Source: Selenomonas dianae (GTDB lineage: Bacteria > Bacillota > Negativicutes > Selenomonadales > Selenomonadaceae). Taken from it: DNA of 64,000 bases. The translations under genes were made by a program, and so were the position numbers. The notes under the pieces were generated by a model that ran no database searches, was not told the origin of the DNA, and was given only the letters and a program-made list of their open reading frames with translations. Positions 34,497-40,089 of the stretch are shown piece by piece (the first letter of the stretch is position 1; each line of letters starts with the position of its first letter). The stretch covers positions 1,126,001 through 1,190,000 of the forward strand of contig NZ_CP128650.1 in assembly GCF_030644225.1 (NCBI RefSeq). Reading direction: 5' to 3'.

Positions 34497-35342
34497 TCAC
34501 TCCTTCGTCGGATCGCCAATCAGAAAGAGATAGGCAAGCACGACGATGCCGAGCGCGATGCGATACCAGCCGAACGCCGTGAAATCGTTGCGCTTGATGT
34601 AGCGCAGGAGGAATCGGATCGAGAGAATCGACACGATGAACGCCGTCACCATGCCAATGGCGAGGATCACGAGCTCCGCCCCCGTGTAGTTCCAACCAAA
34701 CTTCACGAGCTTCAGAAAGGACGCACCAAACATGACGGGAATCGCAAGAAAAAATGTGAACTCCGTGGCAACATAACGGCTTGCACCGAAGATGATGCCG
34801 CCGAGAATCGTCGCACCCGAGCGGCTCGTCCCCGGAACGAGCGAGAGCACCTGAAACATACCGATGATGAACGCCGTACGGTAGTCCAGTGCGGCAAGAT
34901 CGTCCACGCGTGGTGTGCGCCGCTTGTTGAAGCGTTCCACTACAATGAAGAGCACGCCGTAGAGAATCAGCATCGCGGCGACCACGGGCGCATTCATGAA
35001 ATGTTCTTCCATGTATTTATTGAACGCAAGCCCGATCACGGCGGCGGGCAGACAGGCGACGATGACCTTGCCCCAGAGATCGAACGTCGCGCGACGCTCT
35101 GCCTCTGACTTACTCTTTAGGAATGGGTTGAGCTTTTCGAGATTCAGCACAACAACGGCGAGAATCGCGCCGAGCTGAATCACAACGAGGAACATATCCA
35201 TGAATGCCGTCGACACATCGAGCCGAATGAACTCATCGACGAGGATCATATGCCCCGTGCTCGATACGGGAAGCCACTCCGTCAATCCCTCCACGATGCC
35301 CAGAATGACAACCTTCACCAGTTCCATCAATGAAATATCCAC
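34497..35342 (-). CDS. uppP: Undecaprenyl-diphosphate phosphatase
   Basis: BacA-type integral membrane phosphatase that recycles undecaprenyl pyrophosphate for peptidoglycan and LPS synthesis; loss lowers bacitracin tolerance. The 281 residues hold the two active-site motifs [17 protein letters not shown] (about 18-34) and [19 protein letters not shown] (about 172-190) among about eight membrane segments. A MITE-like element occupies the leader between its start codon and the promoter at 35543-35551. Confidence 0.96.
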
Positions 35343-35367
35343 TGTAAATGTACTCCTCCTCTGCTAG

Positions 35368-35527
35368 GGAAGCACTGATAAATTCAGCCACACCAACTTA
35401 GTGCCTCTTTTTTACCCGTACTTTGTCGTCAAATCCTCCACATGGCCTTTGCTATGCCTCCGGTTTGCCTCCTTAGTTCGGACGAAAAATCTACGCCAAT
35501 CTGAGGGTCTATTTCATCAGCGATTCC
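35368..35527. mobile_element. MITE-like element, copy 1 (160 bp)
   Basis: Begins GGAAGCACTGATAAATTC and ends ATTTCATCAGCGATTCC, so the ends form imperfect inverted repeats (GGAAGCACTGATAAA against GGAATCGCTGATGAA). It is flanked by CTAG (35364-35367) and TTAG (35528-35531), a 4-bp near-duplication. About 80 percent alike to copy 2 at 39920-40081. No coding capacity. The ends resemble IS5-group termini, so mobilisation in trans by an IS5-type transposase is a reasonable inference. No transposase is in this window. Confidence 0.8.
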
Positions 35528-35542
35528 TTAGAAATCTCGCCT

Positions 35543-35551
35543 ATTATAGCA
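35543..35551 (-). promoter_or_regulatory. Extended -10 promoter element of uppP
   Basis: Minus-strand TGCTATAAT with a perfect -10 (35548-35543). The -35 is poor. Transcription would start at about 35536, so the MITE at 35368-35527 lies wholly inside the uppP 5' leader. Confidence 0.6.
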
Positions 35552-35579
35552 CAGTTCCCGCATTTCTGCACGATTTCTA

Positions 35580-35790
35580 TGATAAATGTTACGAGAAAAT
35601 GAGGTCAGCGATGCTCCTAAGCAAACCCTAGTGGAGCAAGCGGGAAAAGTGTGCGGTACGCCCCGTTGGACTTCTTTCGTCCAAGCGCAGCGCGTTTAAG
35701 AAGTCCAGCGGTATTTGAGCGTACAAGCACACGAACGCTTGCGCAACTAAGTGTTTGCGTGGAGCATGCATGTCCGTAAAATTTGACGTA
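35580..35790. repeat. Structured intergenic block, possible dispersed repeat
   Basis: Between the uppP promoter and the gdhA terminator. It holds the inverted repeat GGACTTCTT (35668-35676) / AAGAAGTCC (35698-35706) and the alternative TTGGAC/GTCCAA (35666-35671, 35679-35684). I see no gene in it. Near the left end GTCAGCGATGCTCC is loosely similar to the MITE end, but not close enough to claim a copy. Confidence 0.35.
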
Positions 35791-35800
35791 GACCCCAAAG

Positions 35801-35825
35801 AAAAAAGGCTGCCGAAGCAGCCCTT
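35801..35825 (-). terminator. Terminator after gdhA
   Basis: Minus-strand GGGCTGC-TTCG-GCAGCC followed by TTTTTT (A-run 35801-35806). It begins about 19 bp past the gdhA stop. Confidence 0.88.
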
Positions 35826-35843
35826 CTCTATACAATTCTACGC

Positions 35844-37193
35844 TTACACGAGACCATGTGCGAGCATAACATCCGCAACCTTTGCGAACGCTGTGATGTT
35901 TGCACCCGCGACAAGATCGTCGGGGTCGGCATACAGTTCCGCATTCTTCTTCGCGTCGCGGTAGATGTGCGACATAATCTTGCGGAGACGCTTGTCCACC
36001 TTCTCGAACGTCCACTGACGGCGCTCGGAGTTCTGCGACATCTCCAGTGCGGAGGTCGCAACACCGCCCGCATTTGCCGCCTTTGCCGGTGCAAAGAGCA
36101 CCTTGTGGCTCTGGAAATATGCAATTGCATCGAGTGTCGACGGCATATTTGCGCCCTCGCCGATCGCCTGTACGCCGTTCGCAACAAGCAGTTTTGCAGA
36201 CGCCAGATCAATTTCTCCCTGCGTCGCACACGGAAGAGCAATATCGCACTTCACCGACCAGACACCCGAACAGCCCTCGTGGTACTCGGCATTCGGATGT
36301 GTCGCCGCATACTCCTTGATGCGCGCGCGGCGAACTTCCTTGATCTCCTTGAGTGCTGCGAGGTCGATGCCATCGGGATCGTAGATGTATCCGTTCGAGT
36401 CGGAGCAGGTCACAACCCTCGCCCCGAGCTCCTGTGCCTTCTCAATCGCATACGTCGCGACGTTGCCCGCACCCGAAACGACAATCGTCTTGCCCGCGAG
36501 GTCGATGCCCTTCGCGGCAAGCATATCCTGCACGAAGTACAGGAGACCATAACCCGTCGCCTCCGTACGTGCAAGACTGCCCCAGTAGTCCGTGCGCTTG
36601 CCCGTCAAAACGCCCGCATCATAGGAGTCACGGATGCGTTTGTACTGACCGAAAAGATAACCGATCTCGCGCCCGCCGACACCGATGTCGCCCGCAGGGA
36701 CATCTACATTCGGACCGATGTGGCGATAGAGCTCCGTCATAAAGCTCTGGCAGAAATTCATGACCTCGTTGTCGCTGCGCCCATGCGGATCGAAATCCGA
36801 GCCACCCTTGCCGCCGCCAATCGGAAGCCCCGTCAACGCGTTTTTGAACACCTGCTCGAACGCGAGGAACTTTAGAATATCAAGTGTCACGCTCGGATGG
36901 AAGCGCAAGCCGCCCTTGTATGGGCCAAGTGTGCTGGACATCTGCACACGGAAGCCACGGTTGATCTGAATCTCGCCCTTGTCGTCCACCCACGGCACAC
37001 GGAACGTAATGATGCGATCCGGCTCGATCATACGTTCAAGGATTTTGTGCTGCTTGTACTCCGGATGCTTCTCCAGCAGGGGAACAACCGATGTCAGAAC
37101 CTCGGAGACCGTGTTCTTAAAATGCGTTTGATCGGGATCGCGCTTCGATACCAGATCGAGAATATCATCTACATACTGTTTCATATCAGACAT
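35844..37193 (-). CDS. gdhA: Glutamate dehydrogenase
   Basis: Hexameric enzyme interconverting 2-oxoglutarate plus ammonia and glutamate; about 449 residues from the ATG at 37193, the length of the NADP-type bacterial family. GGGAGG precedes the start at the right distance, and the longer reading adds 20 residues unlike the family. The catalytic loop PIGGGKGGSDFDPHGRSD, the DVPAGDIGVGGREIGYLFGQY segment, and the dinucleotide fold VVSGAGNVATYAIEKAQELG are visible. NADP versus NAD preference is not certain from sequence. Monocistronic. Confidence 0.96.
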   Translation of the reverse strand: MSDMKQYVDDILDLVSKRDPDQTHFKNTVSEVLTSVVPLLEKHPEYKQHKILERMIEPDRIITFRVPWVDDKGEIQINRGFRVQMSSTLGPYKGGLRFHPSVTLDILKFLAFEQVFKNALTGLPIGGGKGGSDFDPHGRSDNEVMNFCQSFMTELYRHIGPNVDVPAGDIGVGGREIGYLFGQYKRIRDSYDAGVLTGKRTDYWGSLARTEATGYGLLYFVQDMLAAKGIDLAGKTIVVSGAGNVATYAIEKAQELGARVVTCSDSNGYIYDPDGIDLAALKEIKEVRRARIKEYAATHPNAEYHEGCSGVWSVKCDIALPCATQGEIDLASAKLLVANGVQAIGEGANMPSTLDAIAYFQSHKVLFAPAKAANAGGVATSALEMSQNSERRQWTFEKVDKRLRKIMSHIYRDAKKNAELYADPDDLVAGANITAFAKVADVMLAHGLV

Positions 37194-37241
37194 TGTAATT
37201 CCTCCCTCTGCTTGCTCGGTGACCCTCATCGAACGTGACTG

Positions 37242-37250
37242 AGTATAGCA
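37242..37250 (-). promoter_or_regulatory. Extended -10 promoter element of gdhA
   Basis: Minus-strand TGCTATACT (-10 hexamer 37247-37242) about 50 bp before the start codon, preceded by a weak -35. Confidence 0.55.
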
Positions 37251-37308
37251 CACGGCGCAAAGGTTTGTATAGGGATTACAGGCATGAATACAATATGCAG
37301 TGGAAATA

Positions 37309-37343
37309 CAAAAAAGAGGCCTCTGCGAAAATGCAAAGACCTC
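37309..37343 (-). terminator. Terminator of the walJ-htrA-rlmH operon
   Basis: Stem GAGGTCTTTGC / GCAGAGGCCTC on the minus strand (37343-37333 and 37326-37316, two G-U pairs), followed by TTTTTTG. It starts just past the rlmH stop at 37349. Confidence 0.8.
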
Positions 37344-37348
37344 TCGTC

Positions 37349-37828
37349 CTACAGATGATACGGCTCTCCCCGACTGATCTTAAACGCGCGGTAAATCTGC
37401 TCCACGAGAAAGAGGCGGATGAGCTGATGCGGAAATGTGAAACGCGAGAAGGAGAGCCGCAGATCGGCACTGCGGCGCAGTTCATCCGACAGCCCGAAAG
37501 GACCGCCGATGAGAAAGGCAATATGACTCTCGCCTGTGACTGCAAGGCGGTCAATCTTTGCCGCAAACTCCTCCGAGGAGAGCTCTGCGCCGCCGACATC
37601 GAGCACAATGAGATATGCCCCCTGCGGCACCTGCGTCAAAAGACGCTCGCCTTCGCGGCGGATGGTCTCCGCCTTTTCCGCAGCCGAAGGCTTCTCCTTC
37701 ATGCGCTCCTCTGGGATTTCGTGTGTGCGCACATCCGCATAGGGACGCATACGCTTCTCATACTCTGCAATCCCGTCGCGCAGATACTTTTCCTTGATTT
37801 TACCCGCACAGACAATCGTGATTTTCAA
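37349..37828 (-). CDS. rlmH: 23S rRNA (pseudouridine1915-N3)-methyltransferase
   Basis: SPOUT methyltransferase of 159 residues acting on helix 69 of 23S rRNA. Begins MKITIVCAGKIKEKYLRDGI and has the family knot FLIGGPFGLSDELRRSADLRLSFSRFTFPHQLIRLFLVEQIYRA. It overlaps htrA by 4 nt; walJ-htrA-rlmH is the usual tail of the walRK operon in Firmicutes. Confidence 0.97.
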   Translation of the reverse strand: MKITIVCAGKIKEKYLRDGIAEYEKRMRPYADVRTHEIPEERMKEKPSAAEKAETIRREGERLLTQVPQGAYLIVLDVGGAELSSEEFAAKIDRLAVTGESHIAFLIGGPFGLSDELRRSADLRLSFSRFTFPHQLIRLFLVEQIYRAFKISRGEPYHL

Positions 37829-38928
37829 CGATCCTCCTGCGGCATCTCTTCGAGTGTGACCTCCGTTTTGCGCTTCGTATCGTTGCGGTCGTAAGTCACC
37901 GTCACCTTGTCTCCGACCTTGTATGAGGCAATCTTATTCCGCAGTTCGGCAACGCTGTTGACTTCCTCACCGTCGATCTCAAGGATGATGTCGCCGCGCT
38001 GGAATCCCGCCTTGCCGCATGGACCGTCAAGCGACAGACGGAAGATGTAGACGCCCTTGTCGATATTCAACTGATAGCCGTAGCGTGCCGCCGTCGTCGG
38101 GTCAAAGACAGATACCCCAAGATATGGACGCGCCACATAACCTTTTTCGATCAGTTCACTCACGATGGTCTGCACCGTGTTGATCGGGATGGAGAACCCC
38201 ATGCCCTCGACGGCAGCAGCCGCCACCTTCGCACTGTTGATACCGATGACCTCACCGTCGGCGTTTACGAGTGCACCGCCCGAGTTCCCCGGGCTGATTG
38301 CTGCGTCGGTCTGCAGCAGCTTCACACGCTTGTCGCTGACATCGAGCGTGCGGTTCAACGCACTGATGACCCCGACGGTTACGCTGCCCTGAAACTCAAG
38401 CCCGAGCGGATTGCCGATCGCAATCGCCGGCTCGCCGACCACGACCCCATCCGAGTTTCCGAATACCGCCGTCGGCAGGTTGCTTTCATCCACCTTCACA
38501 ACGGCGAGGTCGGTGAACTCATCCTTTCCGATGAGTTTTCCCTTAAGACTGCGCCCATCGGAGAGCGAAACAATGATCTCCTTCGCCCCGTCGATCACGT
38601 GATTGTTTGTCACAATGTAGCCGTCGCTGCGAAATATCACACCGGAACCAACGCCCTGCGTCTCAACCGGATTATTGAACCAGTCACGCGCGACCGCCTT
38701 GTTCGTAATGCCGACGACAGCCGGTCCTACCGCCTTTGCCGCGCGGACAACAGGTGTGTTGCGCGCCTCCGAGAGCCCCGAAACATCGACCGTCTGCGCG
38801 GGCTTCGATCCGCCAACCGTGTTATCGGCAGCCGTTCCCAGCGAGCAGCCGCCAAAGATGACAATGGAGGCGAAAACTGCCGCAGCTGCGAGCGCTGCTC
38901 CTTTTTTCTTGTGAAATCGGATGTTCAT
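37825..38928 (-). CDS. htrA: S1C trypsin-like serine protease with PDZ domain (HtrA/DegP family), probable lipoprotein
   Basis: Envelope quality-control protease, 367 residues. The catalytic triad is H110 (TNNHVIDG), D140 (EFTDLAVVK) and S216 (PGNSGGAL). A single PDZ domain follows (about 270-355, with QRGDIILEIDGEEVNSVAELR). The N terminus is a signal peptide ending IFGGC at residue 28, which reads as a lipobox, so the protein may be lipid-anchored rather than a free periplasmic or single-pass protein. That is unusual enough to note. It follows walJ by 13 nt. Confidence 0.93.
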   Translation of the reverse strand: MNIRFHKKKGAALAAAAVFASIVIFGGCSLGTAADNTVGGSKPAQTVDVSGLSEARNTPVVRAAKAVGPAVVGITNKAVARDWFNNPVETQGVGSGVIFRSDGYIVTNNHVIDGAKEIIVSLSDGRSLKGKLIGKDEFTDLAVVKVDESNLPTAVFGNSDGVVVGEPAIAIGNPLGLEFQGSVTVGVISALNRTLDVSDKRVKLLQTDAAISPGNSGGALVNADGEVIGINSAKVAAAAVEGMGFSIPINTVQTIVSELIEKGYVARPYLGVSVFDPTTAARYGYQLNIDKGVYIFRLSLDGPCGKAGFQRGDIILEIDGEEVNSVAELRNKIASYKVGDKVTVTYDRNDTKRKTEVTLEEMPQEDR

Positions 38929-38941
38929 AACGACATCTCCT

Positions 38942-39697
38942 TTATAGTACGATCTCTGCCCCGCCCTCCGGCAGACAACTCTCTACATCAAGCATCATAC
39001 CGCGTGAAGCGAGAATGTCTGTCACTGTATCACACGCGAGTGCGGGACGATTGTTCTCCTCCGAGAGGTGTGCGAGGAAGACCTTGTGCGGCTGTTTCTT
39101 CATGCGCGTAAGTGCCCATGCCGCCTCCCCATTTGCAAGATGTCCGCGATTCGAGAGAATGCGTCGCTTCAGCGGCCACGGATAGCTGCCCCGACGCAGG
39201 AGGTCGGCATCGTGATTTGCCTCAAAGACAAGAACATCTGCCCCCTCCATCGCCTCCTGCACCGTATCGGTCACAACGCCGAGATCGGTTGCAACCGTGC
39301 AGCAGTGCGAGCCCTCGATGCGAAAGCCACATGGATCCGCCGCATCGTGTGAGATCGCAAAGGGCTGTACCATGACATCGCCAATCGTAAACGCCCCCGA
39401 AATGCTCCGCATATCGTCCTCGAATGCCGTGCCTCCGTCAATGCCCGCAAGCGTCCCGCACGTCGCAAGGATCGGCAGATGGTATTGCTTCGCGAGCGTT
39501 TTCAGTCCGCGCACATGATCGATATGCTCGTGTGTGACGAGTACGGCATTGAGGCTCTGGGGGTCTACGCCGCGCGTGCGCAGCCCCTTCGTGATCCGCG
39601 CCGCACTGATGCCCGCATCCACCAAGATCCGCACACCATCCAGCTCAACATAGATCGAATTTCCCTTGCTTCCGCTCGCCAGTATGGATACTTGCAA
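38942..39697 (-). CDS. walJ: MBL-fold metallohydrolase of the WalJ/YycJ type
   Basis: Metallo-beta-lactamase fold hydrolase implicated in DNA-replication or cell-wall coordination in Firmicutes. Metal motif THEHIDHVRGL (HxHxDH), later HDAADPCGF and HLSEENN. I place the start at the TTG at 39697: GGAGG (39710-39706) is eight bases upstream and the protein then begins MQVSILASGSKGNSIYVELD, the usual family start, giving 251 residues. The longer ATG reading at 39724 would place the ribosome binding site inside the gene. The walRK genes themselves are not in the window. Confidence 0.92.
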   Translation of the reverse strand: MQVSILASGSKGNSIYVELDGVRILVDAGISAARITKGLRTRGVDPQSLNAVLVTHEHIDHVRGLKTLAKQYHLPILATCGTLAGIDGGTAFEDDMRSISGAFTIGDVMVQPFAISHDAADPCGFRIEGSHCCTVATDLGVVTDTVQEAMEGADVLVFEANHDADLLRRGSYPWPLKRRILSNRGHLANGEAAWALTRMKKQPHKVFLAHLSEENNRPALACDTVTDILASRGMMLDVESCLPEGGAEIVL

Positions 39698-39724
39698 CGA
39701 ACAATCCTCCTCTCTGTCCCTCAT

Positions 39725-39874
39725 ATTATTCCACTTGTCTGTAAATTGTCTGCATAATTTCTATGGGAAAAATTATGATTCCAACAGCATGACTTCCTGC
39801 TCCATTCACTTGCCTTCATGCAGCATAATACGAATGAGTTCATGCCACGCCGCAAAGTCCTCACTTAAGTTTGC
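39725..39874 (-). other. Gap between walJ and the plsC-side terminator: decayed reading frame only
   Basis: Together with the terminator and MITE 2 this 392-bp gap is accounted for. On the minus strand a frame without a start codon runs from a TAA inside the MITE to a stop at 39806-39808 and ends with protein-like residues (LSEDFAAWHELIRIMLHEGK). It may be a truncated gene tail or chance. No promoter is convincing; walJ lacks a clear -10/-35 pair here. Confidence 0.3.
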
Positions 39875-39911
39875 AAAAAGCCCCCACAAACAACTGCTGT
39901 AATGTGGGAGC
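39875..39911 (-). terminator. Terminator downstream of plsC
   Basis: Stem GCTCCCACA / TGTGGGGGC on the minus strand (39911-39903 and 39888-39880, one G-U-type mismatch), loop of 14, followed by TTTTT. The MITE at 39920-40081 now separates it from plsC. Confidence 0.7.
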
Positions 39912-39919
39912 AAAATAAA

Positions 39920-40081
39920 GGAAGCACTGATAAATTCAGCACCGCCATCTTAGCACATCTTTTTTGCCCGCTTTTCGTTAGCAAATCCTCCACATAGCTT
40001 TGGCTATGCGTCCGGTTTGCTGCCTCAATCGGACGAAAAAATCTGCGCCAATCTGACGGACTTCATTTTATCAGCGATTCC
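39920..40081. mobile_element. MITE-like element, copy 2 (162 bp)
   Basis: Starts GGAAGCACTGATAAATTC and ends ATTTTATCAGCGATTCC, and is flanked by a perfect TAAA duplication (39916-39919 and 40082-40085). The centre holds a hairpin CATAGC-TTTG-GCTATG (39993-40008), degenerate in copy 1. Same family as 35368-35527, and likewise without coding capacity. Confidence 0.85.
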
Positions 40082-40089
40082 TAAATATT

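Follow-up and report, generated by a model that had tools for sequence, protein, structure and literature searches.

The 64,000-nucleotide stretch of Selenomonas dianae DNA that we analyzed (contig NZ_CP128650.1, positions 1,126,001 to 1,190,000; hereafter the window) carries two short repeats, elements 1 and 2, which a preliminary description had likened to miniature inverted-repeat transposable elements (MITEs) flanked by 4-bp duplications. The elements and the target copies around them are listed here by window position.

35364..35367: target copy left of element 1, CTAG
35368..35527, folding strand minus: element 1, a 160-bp MITE
35528..35531: target copy right of element 1, TTAG, with one mismatch to the left copy
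39916..39919: target copy left of element 2, TAAA; a single TAAA stands at the empty site in 6 of 6 relatives with this flank
39920..40081, folding strand minus: element 2, a 162-bp MITE
40082..40085: target copy right of element 2, TAAA, an exact duplication

The two elements had GGAAGCACTGATAAATTCAG in common at the left end and ATCAGCGATTCC at the right end, and their termini formed inverted repeats (GGAAGCACTGATAAA / GGAATCGCTGATAAA). The shared, inverted ends of the preliminary description were thus present where it had placed them, the repeats being imperfect, and its reading of the flanks agreed with ours, exactly for element 2 and with one mismatch for element 1. The alignment from a genome DNA search gave 82% identity between the elements, close to the 80 percent estimated earlier by eye. 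We searched the window for the end motif with up to 2 mismatches and obtained 8 matches, among them all four element ends, where shuffled sequence gave 1.33 on average. No listed open reading frame (ORF) of at least 80 aa overlapped element 1 or element 2, as expected for the non-coding elements that had been proposed. The folding energy of element 1 was -46.3 kcal/mol on the minus strand and -33.0 kcal/mol on the plus strand, and that of element 2 was -75.0 and -44.7 kcal/mol, respectively. A 150-nt piece of element 2 had a folding z of -6.5 versus -1.3 on the other strand. Element 1 is a decayed copy.

To define the family, a covariance model (R1) was built from an alignment (A3) of 35 copies of the window's own genome (G000; 2,391,311 bases, one contig). 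R1 gave 90 matches in this genome, corresponding to 83 distinct places, of which 74 were at least 140 bp long and 7 were 56-65 bp; a few of the lowest-scoring places, without recognisable ends, may be chance matches or ruins. DNA searches of the same genome, one with each element, both found at least about 40 places, and the end motif with up to 1 mismatch occurred 93 times forward and 94 times in reverse, while the reversed-pattern control gave 0. The repeat is therefore not limited to the two loci of the window, since it occupies 83 places in the genome and has further copies in relatives. Full copies were 154-163 bp long and had the terminal inverted repeat (TIR) GGAANCNCTGATAAA at both termini. 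Among the matches listed for the end motif (at least 120 stretches), the named relatives were oral Selenomonas species and Centipeda periodontii, and one single match lay in a metagenome-assembled genome of Lachnospiraceae. Element 2 had no match among plasmids and phages.

The duplications were counted on 167 of 175 distinct copies, from the own genome and from relatives, that had readable GGAA...TTCC ends and flanks; 8 were dropped. The 4-bp flanks were exactly equal in 102 of these 167 copies, against a mean of 14.2 and a maximum of 24 after shuffling, which bears out the 4-bp duplications of the preliminary description. One mismatch was seen in 39 copies and two or more in 26, and identical flanks of length 6-9 were found in none of the 167. 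The most frequent duplications were TTAA (23) and TAAA, TATA and TTAG (10 each), and the duplicated targets were chiefly of the YTAR/TNNA type. In the window's genome alone, 36 of the 83 places had an exact 4-bp duplication.

Empty sites were found in related genomes, where their absence would have spoken against insertion. Of 12 compared loci of relatives, 6 keep the left flank of element 2, ...GAGCAAAATAAA, and in all 6 it ran on uninterrupted with a single TAAA; after it, 4 of these 6 read TATTTT, where the own flank reads TATTTC. Element 1 was missing, with both flanks kept, in 10 aligned relatives, in which a few bases differed at the junction and the boundaries were inexact. A nested copy provided a natural filled/empty pair: at L003 1421-1721 (G000:C1 near 2154667) a copy sits within a second repeat, described below, in the arrangement TTAA-element-TTAA, and other copies of the second repeat have a single TTAA at this point. 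The family thus combines short non-coding elements with TIRs, a duplication of fixed length, many copies with empty sites and, as described next, a partner with matching ends, and we take both elements to be members of a MITE family that has spread through one bacterial family (taken as Selenomonadaceae, judging by the named relatives).

A transposase gene with the same termini had been suggested as the means of identifying the parent, and we searched for it with the PF01609 profile over 31 genomes. Insertion sequences (ISs) of 1235-1263 bp with the ends of the MITE were found in relatives (G001, G002, G005, G006, G007 and G015), with both ends present at 7 loci. Those in G001 were two copies with one in-frame stop each, and at L160 of G011 one IS end was found. 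The 15-18 terminal bp were nearly alike between MITE and ISs; the left end of the MITE equals the transposase-side IS end through AAATTC and its right end equals the other IS end. Four of the IS transposases scored 294-318 bits on NF033581 (IS5 family; cut-off 140) and also matched PF05598 and PF01609, while membership in IS1182 was rejected, as that model gave about 101-103 against a cut-off of 270. The ISs with the same ends, these scores and the 4-bp YTAR/TNNA targets support the IS5-type mobilisation named in the preliminary description, with mobilisation itself being our interpretation. The IS ends of genus g3 read GATTAA; the MITE starts there (n=12) read GGAAAC[AG]CTGATTAAA in 5, GGGCG in 5 and GATAAA in 2, so that the agreement with the IS ends was partial.

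A PF01609 search of the window's genome itself found nothing at E<=1, which makes its copies look like orphans. For a parent in this genome, 26 of 100 listed TIR sites (187 in all) lay outside the catalogue of 83 places and 20 regions around such sites were taken; neither these 20 nor the window had a tblastn hit to the IS transposase below E 0.06. Two TIR pairs were rejected as parents. The 1676-bp pair in L136 belonged to two separate copies that flank host ORFs, and one of these copies is shortened. The pair of ~1.38 kb at L416 501-1881 (G000:C1 1523993-1525373) enclosed a 426-aa ORF that was read as no transposase. By eye this ORF is glycosyltransferase-like, and it lies between two half copies with their ends outward and unmatched flanks. 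We also compared the ~125-bp MITE interior with 6 ISs by blastn and found no match beyond chance (best E 0.10-0.36 over 12-16 bp). Derivation from an IS5 member by internal deletion was rejected, since the interior was unrelated to IS sequence.

The interior was found to fold in a strand-specific manner. All 175 copies found by sequence folded better on one strand (mean -73.9 versus -46.6 kcal/mol), namely the strand opposite to the orientation in which the elements were described, which is the minus strand in the window. Of 121 genomes from 30 genera of the bacterial family, 60 genomes in 17 genera had an R1 match when the best candidates (at most 24) per genome were scored. A cross-genus set of 76 copies, 156-164 in length, was drawn from at least 24 genomes of 15 other genera and had an identity of 0.56-0.91 to the own-genus consensus. 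All 76 folded better on the same strand (-87.8 versus -61.3 kcal/mol), in a set that was gathered with the structure model and is biased to good folds. Neither the two elements nor the hairpins of 20 loci from other genera had a match over the gathering score in Rfam 15. As judged from these copies, the interior is a ~160-nt imperfect hairpin whose shape appears to be older than its letters and to have been kept better.

We examined the pairing in a plain MAFFT alignment of 73 rows (A5), comprising 6 own copies and 67 of the 76 cross-genus copies. RNAalifold gave -141.0 for the folding strand, compared with -99.4 for the opposite one. Paired cells amounted to 93.8%, compared with 79.0% after shuffling and 37.6-46.4% when the pairing was slid by 1-3 columns, and the covariation score of 0.457 fell to 0.185 after shuffling and to 0.109 or less after sliding. 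Changes on both sides were seen in 54 of 63 pairs, with 639 double-change cells versus 172. Wobble pairs followed one strand: there were 462 G·U cells and 42 A·C cells, a count that is favoured by predicting the structure for that strand, yet no in-register column was persistently A·C. In all 16 genera G·U outnumbered A·C, and G·U reached 4 or more rows in 24 pair columns, A·C in 2. Covariation and strand-specific wobble pairs are both features of a structured RNA. The hairpin was further interrupted by GA/GA internal loops, present in 59, 61, 68, 43 and 34 of the 73 rows and starting at positions 18, 29, 39, 59 and 70 of one arm and 92, 103, 123, 133 and 145 of the other. Their spacing of 10-12 or 20 nt is about one helical turn. 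Conservation of the GA/GA mismatch columns was 0.92 versus 0.79 for paired columns, the loop columns having been picked after the alignment was viewed.

An ordinary IS5-derived MITE would have such a hairpin as a by-product of its inverted repeats, and the symmetry would come from arm-templated repair (quasi-palindrome correction) or gene conversion without selection on a strand. Compensatory changes are indeed the expected product of arm-templated repair, and the unbiased orientation and the seemingly unconstrained single-copy mutations described below also fit this account. Repair, however, would remove mismatches and treat both strands equally, whereas the GA/GA mismatches were the most conserved columns and G·U pairs greatly exceeded A·C. 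The interior, in addition, had no IS match beyond chance. We consider this explanation quite improbable.

To see when the fold is kept, we counted alleles in 203 full copies (65 own and 138 of relatives). Pairing was kept by 37 of 46 alleles present in at least 10 copies and by 18 of 72 private alleles (Fisher p = 5e-9). The ratio of G·U to A·C was 31:15 for alleles in two or more copies and 10:15 for private ones (p = 0.04). Among alleles in up to 3 copies, 34 kept and 21 broke the pairing when all copies were taken (p = 0.10), and 28 kept and 14 broke it in the own genome (p = 0.044). Single-copy transitions had no pairing preference (10 keep, 13 break; p = 0.68). Since common alleles keep the pairing and private ones do not, the fold seems to be kept in the lineages that spread while single copies drift, and selection on individual copies was not seen, the single-copy mutations looking unconstrained. 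Orthologous copies fell into three groups, one of them masked by N, which were too few and were left unused. We also listed 17 shortened copies of 30-102 bp without the apical part, of which 7 had exact 4-bp flanks; three 56-bp copies in different genomes had a similar interior. This suggests that the apical stem may be dispensable for movement, though some short copies may be post-insertion deletions.

The position of the copies relative to genes was examined with a home-made codon model, in which 0 of 175 copies lay within predicted genes. Stop codons were close to the element (within 30 bp) at 81 of 170 gene ends that face one, starts at 21 of 162. Genes might seem to be targeted at their ends, with the element acting as a functional terminator or a stabiliser of the mRNA end. 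In 41 of 205 copies (own genome and relatives) a stop codon ended at a distance of 0-1 bp, compared with the 5.2% that target-weighted non-genic sites predict (p = 1e-13), and in a further 17 of 205 the stop was within the end repeat, where TGATAA can supply it. The ratio of stop distances of 0-1 bp to 2-10 bp was 41:13, against 0.052:0.021 expected. The peak arises largely because the YTAR target itself contains TAA/TAG, with gene avoidance adding to it, and no U-tract follows the hairpin. Orientation was also unbiased, with 57 sense and 51 antisense copies between tandem gene pairs, which speaks against a role in host mRNA that depends on orientation; the gene-end explanation as a whole is very improbable. 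Likewise, no bias in replication strand was detected (27/65, p = 0.21), which speaks against a role tied to that strand. TGATAAAAT, near the 5' end, looks like an extended -10 motif, although it belongs to the TIR region.

The selected strand could also be DNA, a hairpin exposed in replication, transformation or transposition and recognised by a protein as in REP/RAYT systems. A strand-specific fold without gene bias is what a DNA substrate might show; DNA, too, tolerates tandem G·A mismatches as stable pairs, and recognition of single-stranded REPs is known. The candidate helper, however, is a DDE transposase that leaves target duplications, and its IS has no hairpin. The lack of replication-strand bias and the 30-102-bp derivatives, 7 of 17 with exact flanks, which suggest that the apical stem is dispensable for movement (at least some may be later deletions), also argue against it. 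We think a DNA strand unlikely.

We consider it likely that the elements belong to a MITE family that is moved in trans by an IS5-type transposase and whose interior is selected as a folded single strand, most probably RNA. The transposase (DUF772 + DDE_Tnp_1) would recognise the ends and would cut and paste the element into YTAR/TNNA targets; in the window's genome the enzyme may have been lost, or may be present but missed by PF01609. While it propagates, the element would be selected for the folding of one strand. Where an insertion is co-directional, as with element 1, the hairpin would lie within a leader RNA, insertions elsewhere would need transcription of their own, and individual copies would drift after spreading. 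Several observations weigh against this proposal. Covariation alone could arise from arm-templated repair, the cross-genus set leans to good folds as stated, and the private alleles (G·U to A·C of 10 to 15) and single-copy transitions are without the expected preference. Neither gene orientation nor replication strand was biased. On the side of the helper, only 2 of the 7 two-ended ISs had exactly equal 4-bp flanks, the others having mismatched YTAR-like pairs; copy-rich genomes (the own, G003, G004, G008, G009, G010 and G012) had no PF01609 match; and G002, a carrier of an intact IS, had 1 element match. Draft assemblies can lose IS copies.

A second type of end was noted in 8 of the 76 cross-genus copies, from four genera, which had GGGCGT... 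(GGGCGTGTTGATTAA) ends. TA stood on both sides in 6 of these 8 and an exact 4-bp duplication in 0 of 8, and in their outer stem the letters were changed with the pairing kept. No helper for GGGCG ends was found among the matches listed in 8 genomes, 7 of them with the motif; an IS in G022 has ends loosely similar to the GGGCG type. It is possible, and we propose it only tentatively, that a mobile module of structured RNA (or single-stranded DNA) travels as MITE cargo, with the ~160-nt GA/GA rod as the unit of selection and outer ends that are exchanged between transposases (GGAA... with 4-bp YTAR in most genera, GGGCG-type with TA). If so, it would constitute a mobile non-coding RNA gene family with its own function in 17 of the 30 genera sampled.

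The elements of the window lie next to the following features.

34497-35342: uppP (BacA), gene assigned by PF02673
35353..35360, minus strand: AGGAGGAG, the likely ribosome-binding site of uppP
35543..35548, minus strand: TATAAT (-10-like) of a conserved block upstream of uppP, the block being kept in 10 aligned relatives
39859..39919, minus strand: remnant of jetA (Wadjet), host of the element 2 insertion

Element 1 falls between the TATAAT block, a putative promoter, and the ribosome-binding site and start of uppP (window 35328-35548). The uppP leader would consequently contain the hairpin, with the folding strand as RNA. The jetA remnant had 83.6-94% identity over 50-61 bp to the loci L217, L219, L221, L223, L225 and L227; the ORF in L217 is JetA, and relatives carry a JetA ORF of at least 387 aa at the site of element 2.

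The second repeat, of ~221 bp, is at window 35575-35795, close to element 1. It matched at 93% in the own genome (L207), 94% in G011 (L214) and 93% in G004 (L215), with partial copies elsewhere. Its ends are GGTTCTATGATAAATGTTACG and, inverted, GGGTCTACGTCAAATGTTACG-like, and it folded at -96.5 versus -85.5 kcal/mol on the other strand. We regard it as another MITE-like family. A divergent copy of the first family (L336) directly precedes a tmRNA gene, and another partial match follows behind it.

Bacterial MITEs are usually viewed as shrunken ISs with an incidental hairpin, while here the shape is conserved, and on one strand only. This makes it testable whether a parasitic element carries a selected structured RNA, and which factor, of the host or of the element, reads GA/GA loops that are one helical turn apart. 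The genomes of oral Selenomonas and Centipeda gain an annotated repeat family, together with a caution that inserted hairpins are present in leaders like the one of uppP.

Compared with known systems, the family is like the IS5 family (NF033581; DUF772 + DDE_Tnp_1) in its GGAA starts and 4-bp YTAR-type target, but the MITE has no gene and its ~125-bp interior is unmatched in the ISs. It is like REP/REPIN sequences in being a high-copy intergenic hairpin with strand-specific features, but REPs are 20-40 bp, linked to RAYT and not known to have 4-bp duplications. We found no description of this repeat family in the literature searched, including the accessible parts of PMC2229807, PMC3049150, PMC10969869, PMC2267715 and PMC8632094. 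The Correia/NEMIS elements of Neisseria are likewise MITEs of 100-200 bp, mostly intergenic and with a long RNA stem-loop, and their hairpins are reported as targets of RNase III; they differ in ends and host, and covariation across genera was not found described for them in the accessible part of the source (PMC2229807). ERIC/IRU and BOX/RUP are also small mobile repeats with highly base-paired transcripts, going by the accessible parts of PMC2229807 and PMC3049150. BOX elements, unlike our family, are modular, and phased GA/GA loops were not found described for them in the accessible part of PMC3049150, which shows them to be transcribed within 5' and 3' operon extensions. MITEs that fold as RNA are already known in kind.

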